NCBI RefSeq assembly: GCF_003123745.1
Contig: NZ_QETB01000008.1
Coordinates: 1-64,000 of the forward strand
From: Ancrocorticia populi
GTDB taxonomy: Bacteria > Actinomycetota > Actinomycetes > Actinomycetales > Actinomycetaceae
DNA: 64,000 nt
Direction: 5' to 3'
The notes under the pieces are model-generated. The model did no database searches. It worked only from the letters and a program-made list of their open reading frames with translations, and was not told the DNA's origin. The first letter of the stretch is position 1; each line of letters opens with the position of its first letter. Below are positions 49,714 through 63,757 of this stretch, piece after piece. Position numbers and translations under genes: made by a program.

Positions 49714-49837
49714 TCTGGCATTATCCCAGTTTGAGAGCGCGGTGGCACACGCAACGCCCTACGTAAGACGAGCACCACATTATGGCTAGCCGCACCGAGA
49801 GCTCAAGATGTGGTTACCCTATGACGAGGAGGGTGCC

Positions 49838-51030: not shown

Positions 51031-51161
51031 GGGGCCAGTCTAGGGCGGGCTGGGGCCATATAAACAGATCTCTATTCGATCAGTGAACGGCCCAGCCTAA
51101 TGGAGTTGGCTGGCGCTTTGGGGTGGTGGAGGGCCGTGGGAGACTTAAGGCAGGAGGTTCG

Positions 51162-53147
51162 ATGAAGGTAGAAGAATTGCTCGATCATCTAGATCCCGAG
51201 CAGCGTGAGGTGGCGAGGAGCTTGAACGGTCCGGTGTGCGTTCGGGCCGGAGCAGGCACTGGCAAGACCCGCGCGATTACCTACCGCATCGCTTACGGCG
51301 TGCATTCGGGGGCATTTGCTCCAGGTCATGTTCTTGCGGTTACCTTTACCTCGCGGGCAGCGGGGGAGCTGCGCTCGCGATTGCGGGATCTGGGGGTGAG
51401 CGGCGTGTCCGCTCAAACCTTCCATGCGGCGGCCCTGCGTCAGCTCTCCTTCTTCTGGGGGACCGCGGTGGGAGGGACCATCCCTCCCATTGCCGAGCAC
51501 AAGGTTGCCTTGGTTTCTCAGGCGGCAAGCGAGCTGGGCATGCCCGTTGATCGGGTCGCGGTTCGGGATCTGGCGGCGGAAATCGAGTGGGCGAAGGTTT
51601 CGCTGGTCTCACCTGACAACTACGTGGAACGTGCCGCAAGCGCTGGCCACGGTGAGATCGCAGGGCATTCTCCCCATGAGATCCCGGCTCTCCTAAGGCT
51701 GTATGAGGATGTCAAGACGGAACGCCACGTTATTGATTTCGAGGATGTTCTTCTTCTTCTCGTGGGAATTATGCTGGATCGCCCCGACGTGGCGCGCCAA
51801 ATCCGGGATCAGTACCGCCACTTCGTGGTGGACGAGTTCCAGGACGTTTCCCCGCTCCAGCACCGATTGCTCCAGTTGTGGTTGGGGGATCGCAAGGAAC
51901 TTTGCGTGGTGGGGGACGTCTCGCAGACGATTTACTCCTTCACGGGCGCACGCTCGCACTATCTGGCACGGTTCACCGAGGAGTTTCCCAAGGCCAGAGT
52001 AATCGAACTCAATCGGGACTACCGGTCCACTCCACAGATCGTTGAGGCCGCCAATCAGGTGATCGCTGCCGACCGTTCCGAGGGGGCGGTGAGCCTGTCC
52101 TCTCAGCTACCTTCCTCCGTTCCAGTGCAGTGGAAAGAGTACCCGGACGATGAAGGCGAGGCCTCCGGCATCGTCGGCGAGATCCTGACCCTCAAAGAAC
52201 AGGGCATCCCGCTTCAAGACATGGCGATTCTGTACCGCACCAACGCACAGTCTGCCCAGTTTGAGGCCGCTTTGGCTCAGGCGGGGGTTGGATACTCTGT
52301 GCGCGGCTCCGAACGCTTCTTCTCGCGGCGCGAGGTGCGCGAGGCGATGGTGGCAATGCGGGCGGCGGCCCGCTCGGGAGCCGAGGGCGATCTGCCCAAC
52401 GTTGTGCGCACCGTGCTGCGGCAGATGGGATGGCGTGATGAGGCGCCGGATCAAGCCGGTGCAGCCCGTGAGCGGTGGGACGCGCTCAACGCTCTGCTCT
52501 CACTCGCCAAGGAGATGCAGGCGAAGCGCGGGGCTGGAATCACCGAGTTCGTGCAGGAGCTCGAAGAGCGAGCACTCATGCAAAACGCTCCGGAGATGGA
52601 CGGCGTGACCCTCTCCTCCCTCCACGCAGCAAAGGGTTTGGAATGGGAAGCCGTGTTCTTGGCCGGGATGAGCGAGGGGCTCATGCCTATCTCGTTGGCC
52701 AAGGGTGAGGAAGGCACGGCTGAAGAGCGCCGGCTGCTTTACGTGGGGATTACCCGGGCGAAGCAGCACCTTCAGGTCTCCTATGCCAAGGGCAACGGCT
52801 CCCGCGCTAACCGCAAGGTGACACGGTTCTTGGACGGCATCTGGCCGGCACCGGAGAAGAAGGTATCACGCACTACGGACTACCGGCGCAGGAAGGCCCA
52901 AGCGCGTACCGACTTTACGAGGGACCACCCCGAAGATGTAGAACTACTGGAGCGCCTGGTCCAATGGCGCAGCGCCAAGGCAACCCAATTGGAGCGCCCG
53001 GCCTACACCGTTTTCCATGACACAACACTTAGGGCCATCGCGATTGCCAAGCCAGCCGGTATTCAGCAGCTCGGACGGATCAAGGGAATTGGCTCCACAA
53101 AACTCGAGGCATGGGGCGAGGAAGTTCTAGATATCGTCAACGGATAG
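51162..53147 (+). CDS. uvrD2: ATP-dependent DNA helicase UvrD2 with HRDC domain
   Basis: Superfamily 1A 3'-5' helicase of DNA repair. The 661-residue protein has Walker A AGAGTGKT (29-36), the Walker B-type VVDEFQD (Asp224-Glu225), the motif GDVSQTIYSFTGA, and the motif V/VI stretches LSSLHAAKGLEW and LLYVGITRAK. The last 80 residues form an HRDC domain (IQQLGRIKGIGSTKLEAWGEE). The tetracysteine zinc motif linking the two parts in mycobacterial UvrD2 is missing. The ATG has CAGGAGG 5-6 nt upstream. The 3' end overlaps the convergent gene by 21 bases. Confidence 0.92.
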   Translation: MKVEELLDHLDPEQREVARSLNGPVCVRAGAGTGKTRAITYRIAYGVHSGAFAPGHVLAVTFTSRAAGELRSRLRDLGVSGVSAQTFHAAALRQLSFFWGTAVGGTIPPIAEHKVALVSQAASELGMPVDRVAVRDLAAEIEWAKVSLVSPDNYVERAASAGHGEIAGHSPHEIPALLRLYEDVKTERHVIDFEDVLLLLVGIMLDRPDVARQIRDQYRHFVVDEFQDVSPLQHRLLQLWLGDRKELCVVGDVSQTIYSFTGARSHYLARFTEEFPKARVIELNRDYRSTPQIVEAANQVIAADRSEGAVSLSSQLPSSVPVQWKEYPDDEGEASGIVGEILTLKEQGIPLQDMAILYRTNAQSAQFEAALAQAGVGYSVRGSERFFSRREVREAMVAMRAAARSGAEGDLPNVVRTVLRQMGWRDEAPDQAGAARERWDALNALLSLAKEMQAKRGAGITEFVQELEERALMQNAPEMDGVTLSSLHAAKGLEWEAVFLAGMSEGLMPISLAKGEEGTAEERRLLYVGITRAKQHLQVSYAKGNGSRANRKVTRFLDGIWPAPEKKVSRTTDYRRRKAQARTDFTRDHPEDVELLERLVQWRSAKATQLERPAYTVFHDTTLRAIAIAKPAGIQQLGRIKGIGSTKLEAWGEEVLDIVNG

Positions 53148-54170
53148 CTCCGGGCCCTCAACCGCTCGAAGCTGAGACCGCTGGCCCGCAGCGGCGGGTA
53201 ACGCGCTCGTCAAGGCGTTCACCATGGCCGCGTAAGACGTACACCCGCAGCGCGGGTGAGGCGGGTGAGAAGCGAGGAACGGAAACGTGGGCAGCGGCGG
53301 CACCCTCCACTGGGAATCATGGAGGGGATTACCGTGACCATCGAGCAGGCTGAGTATCGTGCGGGCCGCGATGCTGGCCGAAAGATCGCGGGTATCGCTG
53401 CTCAGATGGGGAGGAGAACCGGCCCGCGCCTGCGCCGCCAGAAAGCCCCATGCATCGTCCTGCTCAAGGCGGCTCTCGTGGAGACAACTCGCGCACACCG
53501 ATCGGTGTGGTTCTACAAGTGGGCCCACACAGGTATCGATATCCTCCGTCCACGCCAGCAGGTGCGGGATGTCCTCTTCCATCCAACGTTCCGTGGCCGA
53601 GGCAAGGATGAGCCGTGAACCCGTCACCACCGCAACGTCTGGTGTGCCATCGCCTGTCACATCCACGTGGGGAGAGTACTGGCGTAGTAGCGTTGTCATT
53701 GCCCGCGTCCGTGACAAGCCATCCCATCGGGGCCACATCAGCGGGTGGTCCAGTCGCGAAACCGCAGCCCCGTCAGCGAAACTGAGATGCGAGATGCCGT
53801 TTTCTGCGAGCTTGAGCGCGATTGCGGTTCCGAGCGCGTCAAGATTATCGATGTGCACTCGCCACACGGTCCTGTCATTGGTGGCATTGTGCCGGGTAGG
53901 AGCCGGCGCATCGGTTCCTTCGAGAAGCCCGGCCCGGGCGAGCATTCCGAGAATCTCCGCCAACCGGGAAGAACTCATGCCGTACGCTTCGGCCACCGGG
54001 TGGAGCTCCGTGACGGTCCGCTCCTGAGTAAGGAGTGAGACGAATTCCTGCTCTTGGTGCGTCAGCCCCTCGATGATCGCGCCGACCCTTGGATCCAGGC
54101 CCACTTGGATCGTGTCGCGATCGCGCCAGTAGACGCCCAACTCCGGGATAATCCGCATCTGTTCCCCCAC
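53127..54170 (-). CDS. Orphan cyclodehydratase-like (ThiF/TOMM-type) protein
   Basis: Protein of 347 residues related to the E1/ThiF-like part of TOMM cyclodehydratases. The N terminus resembles a peptide-binding winged-helix domain (residues 1-90). The middle lacks a clear GxGxxG nucleotide motif. It has the family stretch VGPLVEPHRSVCASCLHESR, and a second Cys pair in PRCGCTSYA, which together could bind zinc. No precursor peptide, dehydrogenase or YcaO gene is nearby. I recall a similar gene next to uvrD2 in mycobacteria, so it is probably a conserved actinobacterial protein with its own role rather than a RiPP enzyme. GTG start assumed; ATG at 54158 possible. Confidence 0.65.
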   Translation of the reverse strand: MGEQMRIIPELGVYWRDRDTIQVGLDPRVGAIIEGLTHQEQEFVSLLTQERTVTELHPVAEAYGMSSSRLAEILGMLARAGLLEGTDAPAPTRHNATNDRTVWRVHIDNLDALGTAIALKLAENGISHLSFADGAAVSRLDHPLMWPRWDGLSRTRAMTTLLRQYSPHVDVTGDGTPDVAVVTGSRLILASATERWMEEDIPHLLAWTEDIDTCVGPLVEPHRSVCASCLHESRLEQDDAWGFLAAQARAGSPPHLSSDTRDLSASIAARTILSLLDGHGNPLHDSQWRVPPLPTFPFLASHPPHPRCGCTSYAAMVNALTSALPAAAGQRSQLRAVEGPELSVDDI

Positions 54171-54350: not shown

Positions 54351-55823
54351 CTATGAGTTGGCGGGCTGCTCGGGTGGGGTGTTGCCGTCGTCGCCCTTAT
54401 CCTCGGACGTACCGGTATCCCCAAACTCGCCCTTATCCTCGGACTCGGGGGACCCTTCGCCGAAGGCGGGCTCGTGCGGGGCCTCGGAATCGGTGCCGCC
54501 CAGGAGCTCCTCCAAGAAGGCGTCCAGTTCGGCCTCAACCTCACTCGGCTCGGACATTTCGAAAAAGGACTCAGGTTCTTCGAGATGGTCAGCAGTGGGC
54601 AGAAGATCTGGGTGAGACCACAGGTGATCCCGCTCCTCCATACCCAAACGGTCCAGCGCCATACGCCAGAACGCCGCCGCCTCACGAATCTTACGCGGCT
54701 TGAGGTCCAGCCCAACGAGTGATCCGAACACGAGATTTACCGGAGAATTCGTGGCGGAGCGACGTGAGAACATTTCGCCAAGCGGGACGGCATGGGGGAG
54801 TTGGGCCGCTACGGCTCGCGCGGAAACGGCGCTCACCCAGCCCTCAACAAGCGAGAGTATGTGTTCGAGGCGGGCCAGAGACGCTTCCTGTGAGGGTGTA
54901 TCGCTCGGAGTAAACAGGTTCCCGAGGTCCAGATTCTGCATGCTGTCCGGGGTGAAGTTCATCCCGCGCACTTGTTCCTCGATCGATTCCGTGTCGATCT
55001 CAATCTCTCTGGCGTAGGCCGCCACGGTGTCCAGTACCTGACGGCGCAACCACGGCACGCGGGAGTACAGCCGTGCCGCTGCCTGCTCGCGCACTGCAAC
55101 GAAAAGGAGAACCTCGTTCTCTTCCGCGTCAAGGTCGCGGCCGAATTCGGTCACATTCGAGGGCACGAGCGCAGCAGTTTCGCCTTCAACCAGGGGAAGT
55201 CCTGCATCCGACGTACCGAAGGCCTGAGACGCCAGCTCTGCCAGCCCGGACCCAAACTGCATCCCGAGGACCGAGGAAATCATGGACTCCATCATCTGAG
55301 AGGGGTCCCCGCCCATCAGGTTCTTTAGCTCGTCCGGGGCGTGCTCCATCTGCTCGCTCATCGTGGCGATGAATGCGCGCGAAATGTTCTCACCCACCGG
55401 CTCCACGAGGCGCCTAAAGGTGGGGAGCGTGTGTGCGAGCCAATCCAGCCGATTCCACGCCTGACTCGGGCCCCCGCACGGATCGATATCCGTTGCCGGG
55501 TCCAGCCACAGATTGGCAGTTTGAAGACTTGAGCGTGCCTGATCACCCTCGGTTGTGGAAAGTGAATCGTAGTGATCGCGTTGGATCGTTTCGCGAGCCA
55601 CCTGCTCTGCGATCTTCCAATTGACCGGCCCCTCGCCCGAGGAACCGAGCATTGCACGCACCTGAGAAACGACCTGATTGAAGTTGGCGGGGTCCATCAT
55701 CTGCTGCATCTGCTCACCCGGATCAATGCCCTGGCTCCGCATTTGCCCGATGATCTGTTCGGCGGCTTCGTCCCCCAAGACCGCCCGGAGCATCTTCTCC
55801 CACTGATCAGAGTTTTCGCTCAT
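54351..55823 (-). CDS. DUF2342 protein (zinc-metalloprotease-like fold)
   Basis: Actinobacterial protein of 490 residues of unknown function. It has the DUF2342 features: a long N-terminal helical region, VNWKIAEQVARE, then FVAVREQAAARLYSRVPWLR and HILSLVEGWVSAVSARA. Annotated family members are called zinc-dependent metalloproteases, but here the REQAAARLY helix has no histidine, so the usual HExxH site is absent. The last 60 residues are acidic. A strong AAGGAGG site precedes the ATG. It is divergent from the PDZ-Lon gene. Confidence 0.82.
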   Translation of the reverse strand: MSENSDQWEKMLRAVLGDEAAEQIIGQMRSQGIDPGEQMQQMMDPANFNQVVSQVRAMLGSSGEGPVNWKIAEQVARETIQRDHYDSLSTTEGDQARSSLQTANLWLDPATDIDPCGGPSQAWNRLDWLAHTLPTFRRLVEPVGENISRAFIATMSEQMEHAPDELKNLMGGDPSQMMESMISSVLGMQFGSGLAELASQAFGTSDAGLPLVEGETAALVPSNVTEFGRDLDAEENEVLLFVAVREQAAARLYSRVPWLRRQVLDTVAAYAREIEIDTESIEEQVRGMNFTPDSMQNLDLGNLFTPSDTPSQEASLARLEHILSLVEGWVSAVSARAVAAQLPHAVPLGEMFSRRSATNSPVNLVFGSLVGLDLKPRKIREAAAFWRMALDRLGMEERDHLWSHPDLLPTADHLEEPESFFEMSEPSEVEAELDAFLEELLGGTDSEAPHEPAFGEGSPESEDKGEFGDTGTSEDKGDDGNTPPEQPANS

Positions 55824-55952
55824 GACGCCTCCTTCATTCTCCAGCCTCTAGCCTACTGGTCACGGAGAACATCGTGCACCTGATACGCCGAGGGCGTGAC
55901 ATCCACTGAGAACGTCTGGTGAATTCACAGTTCGATGCGGCATGATGGCACC

Positions 55953-57056
55953 GTGCTCAAACAACGTCGCCTCTACATCTCCGGTGGAATCTTCGGACTC
56001 GCGGCCTGTGTCTCGCTCGTGTTGCCCGGATCTTTCATGATCGAGCAGGCCGGCCCAGCCCTTGACGTAACCGGGGATGTAGATGGCGTCCAGCTCCTCG
56101 ATATCTCCGGGACGGATACCTATTCTTCCGATACTCAGCTCTATATGACCACCGTGAGCGCTTTTGGAAATGCGGATTACGGGGTGTCCGGCGCGCAAGC
56201 GCTTCTTGCCCTCGGTTCGGCCGAGCAGCAGCTCATCCCCGTCCGCGCCATGTACGCCAAGGAAGAATCTGCCAGCGATGTGGACGAACGCAACGCCGCA
56301 ATGATGACAAGCTCGCAGGATTCAGGAACCGTTGCGGGGCTGGAGGCCGCGGGCATGGAGGTGCCGATGACTCTCGTGGTTGCCGGCACGGACGAAGCAT
56401 CGGGCGCCGCTGACAAGCTTGCCGAAAACGATGTCCTCACCAGTATCGAGGTTGACGGCACTACCACCGAGATCACCACATTTTCGGATCTTTCCGCGGT
56501 TCTCCGGGACGCCCCAGCGGGAACCGACGTGACCGTGGGGTTCACCCGGGACGGCACGGCCAAGGAGGCGACCTTCGCCACGCAGGCCTACGAAACGGAC
56601 AACACCGGCTGGGATCAGCCCGGCTCACGGCTGGGTGTTTACCTCACGCCGAGCGATCTGGAATTCCCCGTGGATGTCACTTACGGAGTTGAGAACATTG
56701 GGGGGCCATCGGCCGGTACGATGTTTGCGCTCGCGATCTACGATGATCTCACGGAGGGATCGCTGGGAGGCGACTCCAAGATCGCTGGCACCGGGACCAT
56801 GTCCTTCGCCGGTGAGGTCGGAGCCATCGGCGGCGTTCAGCACAAGATGGTGGGTGCCGCTTCCGAGGGCGCCGAATACTTCCTCTCTCCGGCTACGAAT
56901 TGTGCGGAAACCGTTGGCTACGAGCCCGCTGGCATGGAGGTCTTCTCGATCCGGACGCTTCAGGACGCGATCGATGCCACTGAAGCGATCGGCGCGGGGG
57001 ATACGAGTTCGTTGACCACCTGTGCGCAGGTCGCTGCCGATTCGCCAGAGAATTAA
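55953..57056 (+). CDS. Membrane-anchored PDZ/Lon-type serine protease
   Basis: Protein of 367 residues with one N-terminal membrane helix (about 8-30), a PDZ-like region (about 140-210) and a C-terminal Lon (S16) catalytic domain with the Ser253/Lys298 dyad in GGPSAGTMF and GGVQHKMVG. It lacks an ATPase domain, so it acts without ATP outside the membrane. GTG 55953 has a CATGAT hexamer (55941-55946) 6 nt upstream and no ribosome site, so a leaderless start is likely; an in-frame ATG at 55935 is the alternative. Confidence 0.86.
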   Translation: MLKQRRLYISGGIFGLAACVSLVLPGSFMIEQAGPALDVTGDVDGVQLLDISGTDTYSSDTQLYMTTVSAFGNADYGVSGAQALLALGSAEQQLIPVRAMYAKEESASDVDERNAAMMTSSQDSGTVAGLEAAGMEVPMTLVVAGTDEASGAADKLAENDVLTSIEVDGTTTEITTFSDLSAVLRDAPAGTDVTVGFTRDGTAKEATFATQAYETDNTGWDQPGSRLGVYLTPSDLEFPVDVTYGVENIGGPSAGTMFALAIYDDLTEGSLGGDSKIAGTGTMSFAGEVGAIGGVQHKMVGAASEGAEYFLSPATNCAETVGYEPAGMEVFSIRTLQDAIDATEAIGAGDTSSLTTCAQVAADSPEN

Positions 57057-57161: not shown

Positions 57162-57698
57162 TTACTCGAAGGTGTGGCGCAATGCCTCCACCAGCTCCGG
57201 CACCAAGTCCACTGACCCCAGCACCGAATCATCCGCATCAAACGATTTCATTCGCAACGCACACCACGATTCGCCACTGCGCATCACGCCAACTGCCATC
57301 CGGACGTCCTCGCGGCGCTCGTCGGTTGCCAAGAATTGTTCGGCTTCCGCCGGATCGGTCGGAATATCGGCCTCGGCCTCCGGCGGCAGCGTGATCCGCT
57401 CGCAAGTGACGGCAGCGCCGGCCACGCCCTCTGGCCATGCAAGCTGAGCGAGTAGTGACTCAACCGAATCGGCGGGTGGGAGTTCCTCCTGCTCAACGGA
57501 GAAGAGGGATTCTTCGCTTTCCGCCGCATTGAGCGAGACATCGGCGGGCAGCTCCTCGGAAAGCTCAGGATGATCGGCCAGCGCCTCGGCGCTCCGGATC
57601 AGAGCGAATACTCTGATCGGGCCATCCCAGCCATACCCGGCAACGTAATGCTCGATCTCTCGGACTGCTTCTTTGATGGATTCTTGGCGTGTAGTCAC
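57162..57698 (-). CDS. Conserved actinobacterial protein, PPA1309-like
   Basis: Protein of 178 residues, acidic, soluble, without a known fold motif. Features such as EIEHYVAGYGWDGPIRVFALIRSAEAL at the start and ESWCALRMKSFD near the end match a family usually called PPA1309-like and found beside the UPF0182 gene. Role unknown. GTG start; it is divergent from the UPF0182 gene and shares a 231-base control region with it. Confidence 0.72.
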   Translation of the reverse strand: MTTRQESIKEAVREIEHYVAGYGWDGPIRVFALIRSAEALADHPELSEELPADVSLNAAESEESLFSVEQEELPPADSVESLLAQLAWPEGVAGAAVTCERITLPPEAEADIPTDPAEAEQFLATDERREDVRMAVGVMRSGESWCALRMKSFDADDSVLGSVDLVPELVEALRHTFE

Positions 57699-57929: not shown

Positions 57930-60900
57930 TTGTCTACATCTACCGCGCCAGATCCGCGGCGTCCACAAAGGTCGGGCAATAGCTCGGGATTTGGAAACGT
58001 CTTCATCCCCACGCTTATCGTTCTGGCGGTTCTTCTGTTCGCCATCACTATCTTCGCCAACGTGTGGACGGAGGTGAAGTGGTTTGATCAGCTTGATGCT
58101 GTGCGCGTGTTCTGGACCCAATGGGGTTGGGCGATCGCGCTTGGCGTGCTCGGGACATTGCTGGTTGGTCTCGTGGTGTATCTCAACCTTCGGCTCGCGC
58201 TGCCGAAGGGCGATATCGAGGATAGTTCCAGCGGTACCGCGCGGTATCGCCAGCAAGTAGAACAGCACCGGTGGCTGGTGCGGCTGGTTGTCCCGCTGGT
58301 GGTTGGTCTTATCTTCGGTGCCCCGCTAGCAGGGGAGTGGCGTACGTACGTTATGTGGCTCTACCGCACCTCTTTCGGGGAGGTAGATCCTGAGTTCGGC
58401 CAGGATGTTTCGTTCTACGTGTTCTCGTTGCCGGTGCTGCAGTCCTTGCTTTCTCTGGCTACCACCCTCATTGTGTTGGCCCTCATCGCGGCTATCGCTA
58501 TGCACTACCTGTACGGAGGAATTAGTCAGGATAACGGAAAGCTAACTTTGACGCGGCGGGCGCGAATTCACTTTGGTGTGCTCGGCGCCTTGGCATCAGT
58601 AGTTGTTGCTGGTTTCTTCTGGTTGAGCCGATACAACATGCTGTTGGCGGATAATGACAAGTTCTCCGGTGCGTCGTTCACTGACATCAATGCCTCGCTG
58701 CCAGGCCGGACCGTACTGGCGATCGTTGCTCTGCTTGTTGGTATTCTCTTTGTCTTGGCTGCCGTCAAGGGGCTGTGGAAGCTTGCTGGCACGGGCATCG
58801 CCGTTGGGCTTGTGACGATGCTGGTTGTTTCATGGGCCTACCCGGCACTTGTTCAGAACTTCCAGGTGACGCCGAACGCGGTGGAGAAGGAATCGCCTTA
58901 CATCCAGCGCAATATCGATGCAACACTGGATGCCTATGGTCTGGACGATGTTGAGACCACCACATATTCGGCGCGTACCGACGCCGAGGCTGGGCAGCTT
59001 CAAGAGGACGCGCAGGCCACGGCTCAGATCCGTTTGCTCGATCCAACCATCGTTTCCCCAACCTTTAATCAGCTCCAGCAGAATCGCCAGTACTACCAGT
59101 TTGCTGATCAGCTGGCCGTTGATCGCTACAACATCGACGATTCTGAACGCGACACGGTGATTGCCGTGCGCGAGCTGAACCTCACCGGGCTGGACGATTC
59201 CCAGCGCACCTGGGTGAACGACCACACGGTGTACACACATGGATTCGGCGTTGCGGCCGCTTACGGCAACACGTCCACCACGCGTGGCGCTCCACAGTTC
59301 TTCCAGAAGGGCATTCCGTCCACCGGCGAACTGGGGAATTACGAGCCCCGTGTGTACTTCGGACAGAACGTCCCGGAGTACTCGATCGTTGGCGCTCCAG
59401 ACAATGTGGATCCGTGGGAGATTGACTACCCGGACGACGATGCTGAGAACGGCGTTGTGTATTCGACCTACTTGGGGGATGGTGGCCCCGCGATCTCCAA
59501 CATGTTCGAAAAGCTGATGTTCTCCATCAAATTCCGTTCTACGGACATGTTCTTCTCAGACCGTGTGACCAGCGAATCACAGATCCTGTACACGCGTGAT
59601 CCTCAGGAGCGCGTTTCTAAGGTAGCTCCATACCTGACCCTCGATTCGAAGGCATATCCGGCAGTTGTGGATATGGATAATAACGAGGAAACACCTAAGC
59701 GGCTCGTGTGGATCGTGGATGCGTACACTACCTCCAATAACTATCCGTATTCGGCTCGGGCTTCACTTGAGAGTGCCACATCCGATTCGATGACGAGCAG
59801 TTCGGATGCCTTCGGGCAGCCGGAAGAAGTCAACTACATCCGTAACTCCGTCAAGGCCGTTGTAGATGCCTATGACGGCAGCGTCACGCTATATCAGTGG
59901 GACGAGGAAGATCCCGTTCTCAAGGCATGGAGCAAGATCTTCCCAGATATGCTCACGCCGGTAGATGACATGACGGGCGATCTCATGTCCCACGTGCGTT
60001 ACCCCGAGGATATGTTCAAGGTGCAGCGCACCCTGATGACTCAGTACCACGTGACTGATGCTGCCTCGTTCTACTCTGGTGGCGATTTCTGGAACGTCCC
60101 GAACGAGCCGACCGAGGGCGATACTGCTAATCCGCAGCAGCAACCGCCGTACTACCTGACGCTACAGATGCCAGAACAAGACAGTGCCGAGTTCTCGCTT
60201 TCCACTGCCTTTATTCCGGGTGGTACAACGAAGCGCAACGTCATGACAGGATTCATGGCGGCAGATGCTAATGCAGGTAACGAGGCCGGGAAGGTGCGTG
60301 ATGGCTACGGCAAGCTGAGAGTGCTCGAGCTGCCTCGCGACCTCACGGTGCCGGGGCCCGGCCAGGCACAGAACAACTTCCTGACCGATTCCACCGTCTC
60401 GCGTGAACTGAACTTGTTGCGCCAAGGCGGAACGGACGTCCAGATGGGTAACCTGCTGACTTTGCCGGTTGGCGGTGGACTCCTATACGTCCAGCCCGTC
60501 TATGTGGCCGCATCTTCCGGTACCACATACCCGTTGCTGCAGTACGTTCTGACCTCCTTCGGTGACGGCAACCCGATCGGATTCGGAGCCACCCTCGAAG
60601 AGGCACTCGATCAGACCTTCGGCGGCGATTCCGGTGCCGAGGCGGGCGATGCCGGCGTATCCGGGCAGAAGGAAGACGTGACCGGCGGCGAGACTGAAGA
60701 GCCAGATGACGAGGCCACAGCAGAGCCAACCGAGGAGCCGACGGACGAATCGACCGAGGAGCCGGCAGATGATTCCACGTCCGGACCCGTTCTGGATGCC
60801 CAGCAGCAGCTTGATACCGCCCTTTCCAAGGCCGACCAGGCGATGCAGGATTCTAGCGACGCCATGGCGAACAACGATTGGGAAGCTTACGGCAAGGCTC

Positions 60901-60962
60901 AGGACGAGCTACAGGCTGCCATCGAGGATGCGATTGCGGCCAAGCAGGAGCTGGAAGGCTAG
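57930..60962 (+). CDS. UPF0182 family large membrane protein
   Basis: Integral membrane protein of 1010 residues, function unknown, conserved in actinobacteria and some other phyla. It has about seven N-terminal membrane segments (residues 25-320), a large extracytoplasmic domain (about 330-890; for example GAPDNVDPWEIDYPD and YVQPVYVAASSG) and a C-terminal acidic Thr/Glu/Pro-rich linker followed by a helical tail. The TTG start has TGAGG about 8 nt upstream. Confidence 0.9.
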   Translation: MSTSTAPDPRRPQRSGNSSGFGNVFIPTLIVLAVLLFAITIFANVWTEVKWFDQLDAVRVFWTQWGWAIALGVLGTLLVGLVVYLNLRLALPKGDIEDSSSGTARYRQQVEQHRWLVRLVVPLVVGLIFGAPLAGEWRTYVMWLYRTSFGEVDPEFGQDVSFYVFSLPVLQSLLSLATTLIVLALIAAIAMHYLYGGISQDNGKLTLTRRARIHFGVLGALASVVVAGFFWLSRYNMLLADNDKFSGASFTDINASLPGRTVLAIVALLVGILFVLAAVKGLWKLAGTGIAVGLVTMLVVSWAYPALVQNFQVTPNAVEKESPYIQRNIDATLDAYGLDDVETTTYSARTDAEAGQLQEDAQATAQIRLLDPTIVSPTFNQLQQNRQYYQFADQLAVDRYNIDDSERDTVIAVRELNLTGLDDSQRTWVNDHTVYTHGFGVAAAYGNTSTTRGAPQFFQKGIPSTGELGNYEPRVYFGQNVPEYSIVGAPDNVDPWEIDYPDDDAENGVVYSTYLGDGGPAISNMFEKLMFSIKFRSTDMFFSDRVTSESQILYTRDPQERVSKVAPYLTLDSKAYPAVVDMDNNEETPKRLVWIVDAYTTSNNYPYSARASLESATSDSMTSSSDAFGQPEEVNYIRNSVKAVVDAYDGSVTLYQWDEEDPVLKAWSKIFPDMLTPVDDMTGDLMSHVRYPEDMFKVQRTLMTQYHVTDAASFYSGGDFWNVPNEPTEGDTANPQQQPPYYLTLQMPEQDSAEFSLSTAFIPGGTTKRNVMTGFMAADANAGNEAGKVRDGYGKLRVLELPRDLTVPGPGQAQNNFLTDSTVSRELNLLRQGGTDVQMGNLLTLPVGGGLLYVQPVYVAASSGTTYPLLQYVLTSFGDGNPIGFGATLEEALDQTFGGDSGAEAGDAGVSGQKEDVTGGETEEPDDEATAEPTEEPTDESTEEPADDSTSGPVLDAQQQLDTALSKADQAMQDSSDAMANNDWEAYGKAQDELQAAIEDAIAAKQELEG

Positions 60963-62887: not shown

Positions 62888-63757
62888 ATGAATGACTATA
62901 CTCCCACAACGGCTTTTGTATTTGGTGGGGGAGGTGTGCGGGGTGCAGTTGAAGTAGGGATGCTGAAAGCGCTGCTTGAACGGGGTGTATACCCTGACCT
63001 CGTGGTTGGCACATCGGTGGGAGCGATGAATGCGGCCGCACTGGCTCAGAACCCAACCCTTGAAGTGATCGATACACTCATCGAAGCATGGAGTTCCCCC
63101 GAGGCAGCGGCGATTTACGGAGAGGGCATCTTCAGTCAGGCGGGTCGCGCCCTACGGACTCACACCCATCTGAATTCGCCCGAGCCGATTCGCCAACTGG
63201 CAAAGAAGATCTTGAACGGGGACGTTTCATTCGAAGATTTAGCTGTCCCCCTTCAGGTGGTTGCTGCCAGCATCGAACGCGCGTCGGAGCACGTCTTCGC
63301 CTCTGGCCCAGTGATCCCGGCGCTGCTCGCGTCCACGGCGGTGCCCGGCCTCTTTCCTCCAGCTCAGGTGGGTGACGAACACTTTATAGACGGTGGCATG
63401 GTGAACTCGATTCCTCTTTCTCCCGCTATCAACGCTGGAGCGAAAGAAATCTATGTGATGCAGGTGGGCCGGATTGAGGAGCCACTCGATGTCCCACGAA
63501 CACCGGTAGATACGGCACGCGTGGCATTTGAAATATCGCGACGTCACCGATTCTTTGAAGATCTGGAAGATTGCCCGGAAGGTGTGGAGATTTTTGTGCT
63601 TCCGAGCGGTGGTCGTCTCAAGAAGGATGATGGCCCGATGGCGTACAAGGATGTGGCTCAGGCCCGGGCCCGGATCGATCGCGCCTACCGTGCCTCGGCT
63701 GTTTACCTTGCAGAACACAGTGAGCACTCTAGGCGGACTGCGGGGTATGACACGTGA
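62888..63757 (+). CDS. Patatin-like phospholipase
   Basis: Lipid acyl hydrolase of 289 residues. It has the oxyanion loop GGGGVRGA (13-20), nucleophile Ser43 in GTSVG, and catalytic Asp167 in DGGMVNSIP, the Ser-Asp dyad of the patatin family. No signal peptide, so it acts on membrane lipids from the cytoplasm. The stop overlaps the next gene start by four bases; that gene seems to be an acyltransferase, which suggests coupled phospholipid turnover. Confidence 0.88.
   Translation: MNDYTPTTAFVFGGGGVRGAVEVGMLKALLERGVYPDLVVGTSVGAMNAAALAQNPTLEVIDTLIEAWSSPEAAAIYGEGIFSQAGRALRTHTHLNSPEPIRQLAKKILNGDVSFEDLAVPLQVVAASIERASEHVFASGPVIPALLASTAVPGLFPPAQVGDEHFIDGGMVNSIPLSPAINAGAKEIYVMQVGRIEEPLDVPRTPVDTARVAFEISRRHRFFEDLEDCPEGVEIFVLPSGGRLKKDDGPMAYKDVAQARARIDRAYRASAVYLAEHSEHSRRTAGYDT

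Follow-up and report, generated by a model that had tools for sequence, protein, structure and literature searches.

The protease of this locus most closely resembles YlbL of Bacillus subtilis and SepM, PDZ-Lon (S16) proteases that share with it an N-terminal membrane segment, an extracytoplasmic position and a Ser-Lys Lon domain without AAA+. Passages of the YlbL study report that this enzyme clears the membrane-bound division inhibitor YneA, leading to recovery from the DNA-damage checkpoint, and that purified YlbL without its membrane segment had no activity; the authors mentioned an adaptor, none was found by Tn-seq, and recognition is described as unsolved (PMC6051672). The neighboring gene of the locus encodes a DUF2342 protein. 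In the available passages of another paper, metalloprotease function was judged "most likely conserved" in seven families including DUF2342, and the CLCA proteins are treated as zincins with a substituted HExxH (PMC3650047); a zincin fold and a lost catalytic site appear to be common to these and the DUF2342 protein described here. A Haloferax DUF2342 member is named in the supplement list of a further paper, as far as its accessible part goes (PMC6267482). No paper on the pairing of DUF2342 with the protease was found in the literature searched, which mostly did not reach subscription papers.

The window, meaning the whole stretch of DNA that was analyzed, comprises the initial 64 kb of a contig of 64.6 kb in a 2.65-Mb genome, for which the nearest named relatives suggest an Actinomycetaceae-like organism. 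Gene order from position 49808 was NudC (plus strand), UvrD2 (plus), cyclodehydratase-like (minus), DUF2342 (minus), PDZ-Lon-like (plus), PPA1309 (minus) and UPF0182 (plus), with the following features.

51123..53147, plus strand: UvrD2-type helicase with HRDC domain, class-level neighbor (Pfam)
53127..54170, minus strand: orphan cyclodehydratase-like protein, class-level neighbor (TIGR03882, 24.6 bits, under the cut-off of 36.9)
54351..55823, minus strand: DUF2342 / Zincin_2 block copy (TIGR03624), 490 amino acids, predicted pseudo-zincin (profiles, 3cmn alignment, model)
54837..54845, minus strand: EGW codons, residues 327-329, at the third-ligand motif, EGH or EGY in intact copies (alignment)
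55077..55091, minus strand: REQAA codons, residues 245-249, at the HExxH position (alignment)
55824..55934, no strand: divergent intergenic region of 111 bases, presumed to hold both promoters (ORF positions)
55935..57056, plus strand: membrane-anchored PDZ-Lon (YlbL/SepM-like) serine protease, 373 amino acids (profiles, alignment)
56709..56711, plus strand: codon of catalytic Ser259, invariant in 25/25
56844..56846, plus strand: codon of catalytic Lys304, invariant in 25/25
57162..57698, minus strand: PPA1309-family protein between protease and UPF0182, class-level neighbor (profile)
57930..60962, plus strand: UPF0182 membrane protein, downstream of the protease (Pfam, model)

The DUF2342 block protein matched PF10103 at 360.2 bits (cut-off 25) and TIGR03624 at 315.1 bits (cut-off 136.05) in profile searches. 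Against the F420-associated family DUF2342_F420 (TIGR03883) it scored 120.6 bits, under the cut-off of 171.35, and an F420 link was ruled out on that score. Because its AlphaFold2 model (17 input sequences, mean pLDDT 80.6) superposed on 3cmn of Chloroflexus with a VIA-align Z of 27.3 (rmsd 2.9, 292 residues aligned; Foldseek E 3.6e-08), the fold of 3cmn is retained. HExxH is kept in 3cmn as HEMTH, whereas the aligned residues 245-249 of the window protein read REQAA. The original prediction that the histidine of HExxH is missing was therefore borne out, and the second His is absent as well. Only the Glu of the third-ligand motif is retained (EGW), and the zincin combination of HExxH with a third Glu was not found. 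Zincins require both His of HExxH; the block copy, in this class, is very probably not a zinc protease. A recent pseudogene was ruled out by the open reading frame and the strong conservation of block copies. Inspection by eye revealed no signal peptide in the protein, which is predicted to be cytosolic.

Block copies were compared in an alignment of 160 rows (the window, 80 class-level loci and 79 named loci) comprising 157 distinct sequences; three sequences appear twice because the named and unnamed sets have genomes in common. The class loci had been hand-picked for spread and size of contig on the basis of containing DUF2342, and the named loci were found via the protease as the best 80 among the matches listed. 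Position 245 was Arg in 154 of the distinct sequences, Gln in 2 and Ile in 1. Since the first His was present in 0/157, the hydrolase and metalloprotease labels carried by TIGR03624-type actinobacterial proteins are misleading for the block copy, and for one DUF2342 branch these copies contradict the metalloprotease reading in the passages available of PMC3650047. The second His was retained in 115 and Glu327, the third Glu, in 144 of the 157, as might be expected if block copies still bound metal and cleaved through non-canonical ligands (RExxH plus Glu). However, the first ligand is Arg in nearly all of them, the window protein and several close relatives have Ala in place of the second His, and zincins in general need both His, so that we consider such a site extremely improbable.

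Glu246, the catalytic Glu of HExxH, was present in all 157 distinct block copies, and Trp329, Val330, Glu350, Arg354 and Arg380 were each present in 156, with one gap apiece. Arg245, Trp329, Val330 and Glu350 depart from the consensus of stand-alone copies. Given these fixed Arg, Glu and Trp positions, the pocket is not drifting; it looks rebuilt and held rather than decayed. The same positions, with the universal Glu246, would also suit a new enzyme with metal-free chemistry (Glu246 as base, with Arg245, Glu327 and Trp329), to which the protease would be linked by regulation or pathway and not as a partner. According to the accessible passages of a beta-lactone probe study, M. abscessus MAB_3501/Rv3195 was among the proteins detected, which could mean an active nucleophile (PMC12101465). 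However, no Ser, Thr or Cys was found at positions conserved in at least 95% of block copies, hence there is no evident nucleophile for the beta-lactone, and deep lineages lost the site variously, with even the Glu of HExxH gone in L146, L147 and L148. A new enzyme is unlikely on this evidence.

The window's genome also carries a second DUF2342 copy, on contig C4 at approximately 126400-127392 (L102:9395-10426), with HELTH and EGHAE intact. The original prediction mentioned neither this copy nor the missing second His nor the rebuilt-looking pocket. The copy is flanked by TilS on one side and an S13 D-Ala-D-Ala carboxypeptidase on the other, FtsH lies further out, and a second copy away from the block was present in many other genomes. 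HExxH was found in all 26 stand-alone copies sampled. Near these 26, for which some stretches were shortened, TilS was found 19 times, FtsH 15 times and S13 11 times, and S13, DUF2342 and TilS were together in 11/11 class-level stand-alone loci examined.

To the block copies of the class we added a deep set of 40 stretches from phylum members outside the class, plus an earlier set. Seven deep block copies of one family (L109, L134, L136-L139 and L143) retained HEVTH, whereas L144, which belongs to that family as well, has RELAL. The motif was HEVAH in L153 and HESAH in L140; further deep motifs were HEVVR, HQVAG, TEAAH, HATAH, HQAAH, SDTGR, HDTAR, HEAAR, QDVTR and QEIAM. A DUF2342 tree of 97 rows, picked after the site was known, was built by a quick method with the zinc-site columns excluded, and a row was counted as having a block gene nearby if the protease, UPF0182, MoaE, an MreB-like gene or an epimerase-like gene was present. 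L145 and L152 had no protease but reached a contig end; both were kept, L145 as a block row for its epimerase-like neighbor and L152 as a row without a block gene. Stand-alone copies formed one 26-row group, and the intact and lost states of the site needed at least 5 changes, all outside that group. Of the 70 rows with a nearby block gene, 59 had lost the site and 11 still had HExxH; of the 27 rows lacking such a gene, none had lost it. When the 59 lost rows were forced into one clade, the lnL was 184 lower (p-AU 9e-8), and a one-time loss was ruled out on this quick tree of rows picked after the site was known. By these alignments the zinc site has been lost more than once, and in differing ways, across lineages; we infer that the direction was loss from the common zincin motif and not gain. 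On the tree, block and stand-alone copies part in what is nearly a single split, which leaves few independent cases behind the association of the block with site loss; a sign test on independent pairs lacked power.

The protease of the window matched Lon_C at 32.1 bits (Pfam cut-off 21.1), as a Lon-type S16 protease would. Its residues 87-325 aligned with the SepM-family model NF041438 at 87.1 bits, under the equivalog cut-off of 200, and we refer to it as YlbL-like without assigning it to SepM. Pfam gave no PDZ match in this protein at E<=0.001; the region between its membrane segment and Lon domain aligns with the SepM model. In contrast to SepM and YlbL, it is paired with DUF2342 and UPF0182, and most members have a Cys pair. 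Among 184 aligned rows including the window, Cys323 and Cys363 were both present in 164, neither was present in 20 (of which L146 ends at a contig edge), and neither ever occurred singly, any Cys in the tail being scored as the second Cys; this joint presence or absence fits a disulfide outside the cytoplasm. A hydrophobic segment at about residues 13-34 follows a basic N-terminus, as judged by eye. The Ser259-Lys304 dyad was found intact in the window, as originally claimed, and in 183 of the 184 rows, the remaining row ending at a contig edge. The claim that the protease lies on the outer membrane face held in part: it is predicted to be outward-facing, with no ATPase part, at the outer face of the cytoplasmic membrane, but this is not an outer membrane.

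DUF2342 and the protease occurred together in 79 of the 80 class loci, the exception (L075) ending at a contig edge, and were divergent in 78 of the 79 that held both. They were likewise divergent in 79/79 named loci with both, from the best 80 among the protease matches listed (L240 ends at a contig edge), and in 23/23 deep loci with both at >=100 bits. L040, L074, L076, L090 and L193 count as divergent by domain positions, their stop-to-stop frames merely overlapping, and L239 was counted for its opposite strands and divergent order, with matched envelopes overlapping by approximately 280 bases. The class exception, L123, has the two genes in tandem with UvrD2 and the cyclodehydratase-like gene in between, and was the sole such locus examined. 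The 111-base intergenic region of the window held no match to the sigma-70 consensus.

Across 119 genomes of the phylum, a full-length protease was found in 62 and DUF2342 in 82; both were present in 60, the protease alone in 2, DUF2342 alone in 22 and neither in 35 (Fisher p 8e-13, inflated by kinship). All 10 class members in this sample had both. By the best protease match per genome, the two genes were no more than 10 kb apart in 44 of the 60 genomes with both, and divergent in 43 of the 44; in 16 the genes were more than 10 kb apart or on separate contigs. A single DUF2342 match was present in 20 of the 22 genomes with DUF2342 alone, and two matches in G327 and G365. The coupling of DUF2342 and the protease is well supported, and judging from gene order and co-occurrence the two very probably constitute a real conserved module.

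UPF0182 was downstream of the protease on the same strand in 69/74 class loci, 14/14 deep loci and 77/78 named loci with all three genes, the named loci again being drawn from the best 80 among the protease matches listed; in the 14 deep loci the domain ends of protease and UPF0182 were 64-673 bases apart. The model of UPF0182 had a pLDDT of 82.8 and gave no Foldseek match at E<=0.001, and its best VIA hit (Z 8.9, 59 residues of C-terminal helices) was unusable. Near the 80 class loci, some with ends cut by contig or stretch, uvrD2 was found in 65, nudC in 45, PPA1309 in 59 and the cyclodehydratase-like gene in 74. In loci outside the class, MoaE, an epimerase-like gene labeled by eye and an MreB-like gene often occupy the space that separates DUF2342 from the protease (24, 26 and 18, respectively, of 102 loci with both genes). 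The conserved block of the original prediction is real for DUF2342, the protease and mostly UPF0182, for which the scattering in most actinobacteria that would have spoken against it was not seen. However, its core is smaller than claimed: the association with uvrD2, nudC, PPA1309 and the cyclodehydratase-like gene is seen at the level of the class, and MoaE, epimerase-like and MreB-like genes are found elsewhere. The proposed likeness to the surroundings of mycobacterial uvrD2 was confirmed in kind, L125 having UPF0182, protease, DUF2342, cyclodehydratase-like gene, UvrD2 and NudC, an order that we take to be that of M. tuberculosis Rv3193c-Rv3199c. Rv3194c is presumably the mycobacterial member of the window protease family. 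A citing paper describes Rv3194c as a serine protease tied to pathogenicity, in passages that make no mention of DUF2342.

The loci with an MreB-like gene between DUF2342 and PDZ-Lon were L109, L134, L136-L140, L143, L144, L146-L148, L153 and L157-L161, and many deep loci with this gene also carry MoaE or the epimerase-like gene. The cyclodehydratase-like gene was seen weakly near DUF2342 in some deep loci (L157-L160). PADLOC returned 0 matches for five block proteins, and an anti-phage defense system was ruled out on that result.

Ten genomes, chosen mostly for smallness, were searched for the same genes. In G287 (0.8 Mb), DUF2342 still diverged from an adjacent protease that lacks the PDZ stretch, and neither UPF0182 nor a second DUF2342 was found. 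Three genomes of 1.2-1.4 Mb (G025, G044 and G125) retained the trio, and their sole DUF2342 was the inactive copy. The pair was intact in G225, G247, G260 and G274, with UPF0182 far off or on a different contig, and G271 (1060 contigs) had the protease and UPF0182 with no DUF2342 match. Protease matches skipped the PDZ stretch (profile positions approximately 117-213) in 6 of the 10 genomes, namely the reduced or small genomes G287, G247, G274, G260, G025 and G044. In this small sample of ten, the pair and not the entire block resists loss most. Since the pairing is retained in some very small genomes, the dead enzyme probably aids or controls the live protease.

These retentions also bear on a different scenario, genomic hitchhiking, in which two housekeeping genes would have an ancient common divergent promoter and neighborhood and do no joint work. 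The co-travel of UvrD2, NudC and the cyclodehydratase-like gene is consistent with hitchhiking, as is the unspecific distance-tree correlation over 72 loci, in which the partial r was higher for DUF2342 and UvrD2 (0.51) than for DUF2342 and the protease (0.43). Because DUF2342 tracks UvrD2 more than the protease, this correlation was dropped as proof of interaction. However, the pair was intact despite inverted or shuffled flanks in L040, L041, L059, L064 and L065, in small genomes it survives loss or relocation of UPF0182 and loss of the second DUF2342, and the two genes co-occur across the phylum, although that test is inflated by near relatives. Hitchhiking is rather unlikely.

The reading that we prefer, in which our confidence is about evenly balanced, is that the block DUF2342 is a cytosolic pseudo-zincin that serves as a dedicated accessory or regulatory partner of an outward-facing, ATPase-less Lon-type protease. 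The pseudo-zincin and protease would act together, the protease trimming or degrading membrane-anchored envelope or division proteins, as YlbL does YneA in Bacillus subtilis. With its Arg-Glu-Trp pocket, the pseudo-zincin could bind a ligand in the cytosol, or the part of the protease, the substrate or UPF0182 that reaches into the cytosol, and this binding would gate substrate choice or activity of the protease; UPF0182 could be a client or a membrane scaffold. The functional parallels for the pair all come from homologues, and we place it in envelope or division proteolysis because of YlbL, the MreB-like neighbor in deep lineages, and the connection of Rv3193c to rv0954. In the passages available of that Tn-seq study, which used a mutant of rv0954, a gene of the division complex, 14 membrane-protein hits were underrepresented; Rv3193c (UPF0182, 7 predicted transmembrane helices) is one of them, and six of the 14 were counted as division proteins (PMC8093794). 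The cytosolic part of the protease is predicted to be approximately a dozen residues. Since the membrane is predicted to separate DUF2342 from the protease, it is not evident that the two could touch directly, and the mechanism is one that we infer. In favor of the preferred reading are the divergent pairing, its persistence where flanks are rearranged and in reduced genomes, the repeated loss of the zinc site and the newly fixed pocket positions. Also weighing against it are the separated tandem genes of L123, the 16 of 60 genomes with the genes far apart or on different contigs, the genes that often intervene beyond the class, the 11 block rows with HExxH, the small number of independent cases behind the association of block and site loss, the unspecific distance-tree correlation and the failure of Tn-seq to reveal an adaptor in the YlbL work. 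In a more speculative version, which we think improbable, the pseudo-zincin would sense a cytosolic cue via its rebuilt pocket and switch the Lon protease across the membrane through UPF0182 or the membrane segment of the substrate, tying envelope proteolysis to the cytosolic state in division, with dead proteases having been recruited independently more than once. The preferred reading would give a specific candidate partner to membrane Lon proteases, a class in which substrate selection is described as unsolved in the available text of PMC6051672. The gene pair is found in 79/80 class loci and is still together at 0.8 Mb.

Near the protease, window positions 62888-63757 hold a gene that we labeled patatin/RssA-like from its sequence, and ylbL of B. 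subtilis presumably adjoins a patatin-like gene, ylbK. A similar gene was present in 1/100 stretches, and the patatin gene was dropped as a recurrent partner. A PDZ gene-neighborhood study, in the passages available, places rsmD beside PDZ-Lon genes (PMC6411480). In one locus (L048:5448-8893), three PDZ-Lon-like genes in tandem adjoin one DUF2342.
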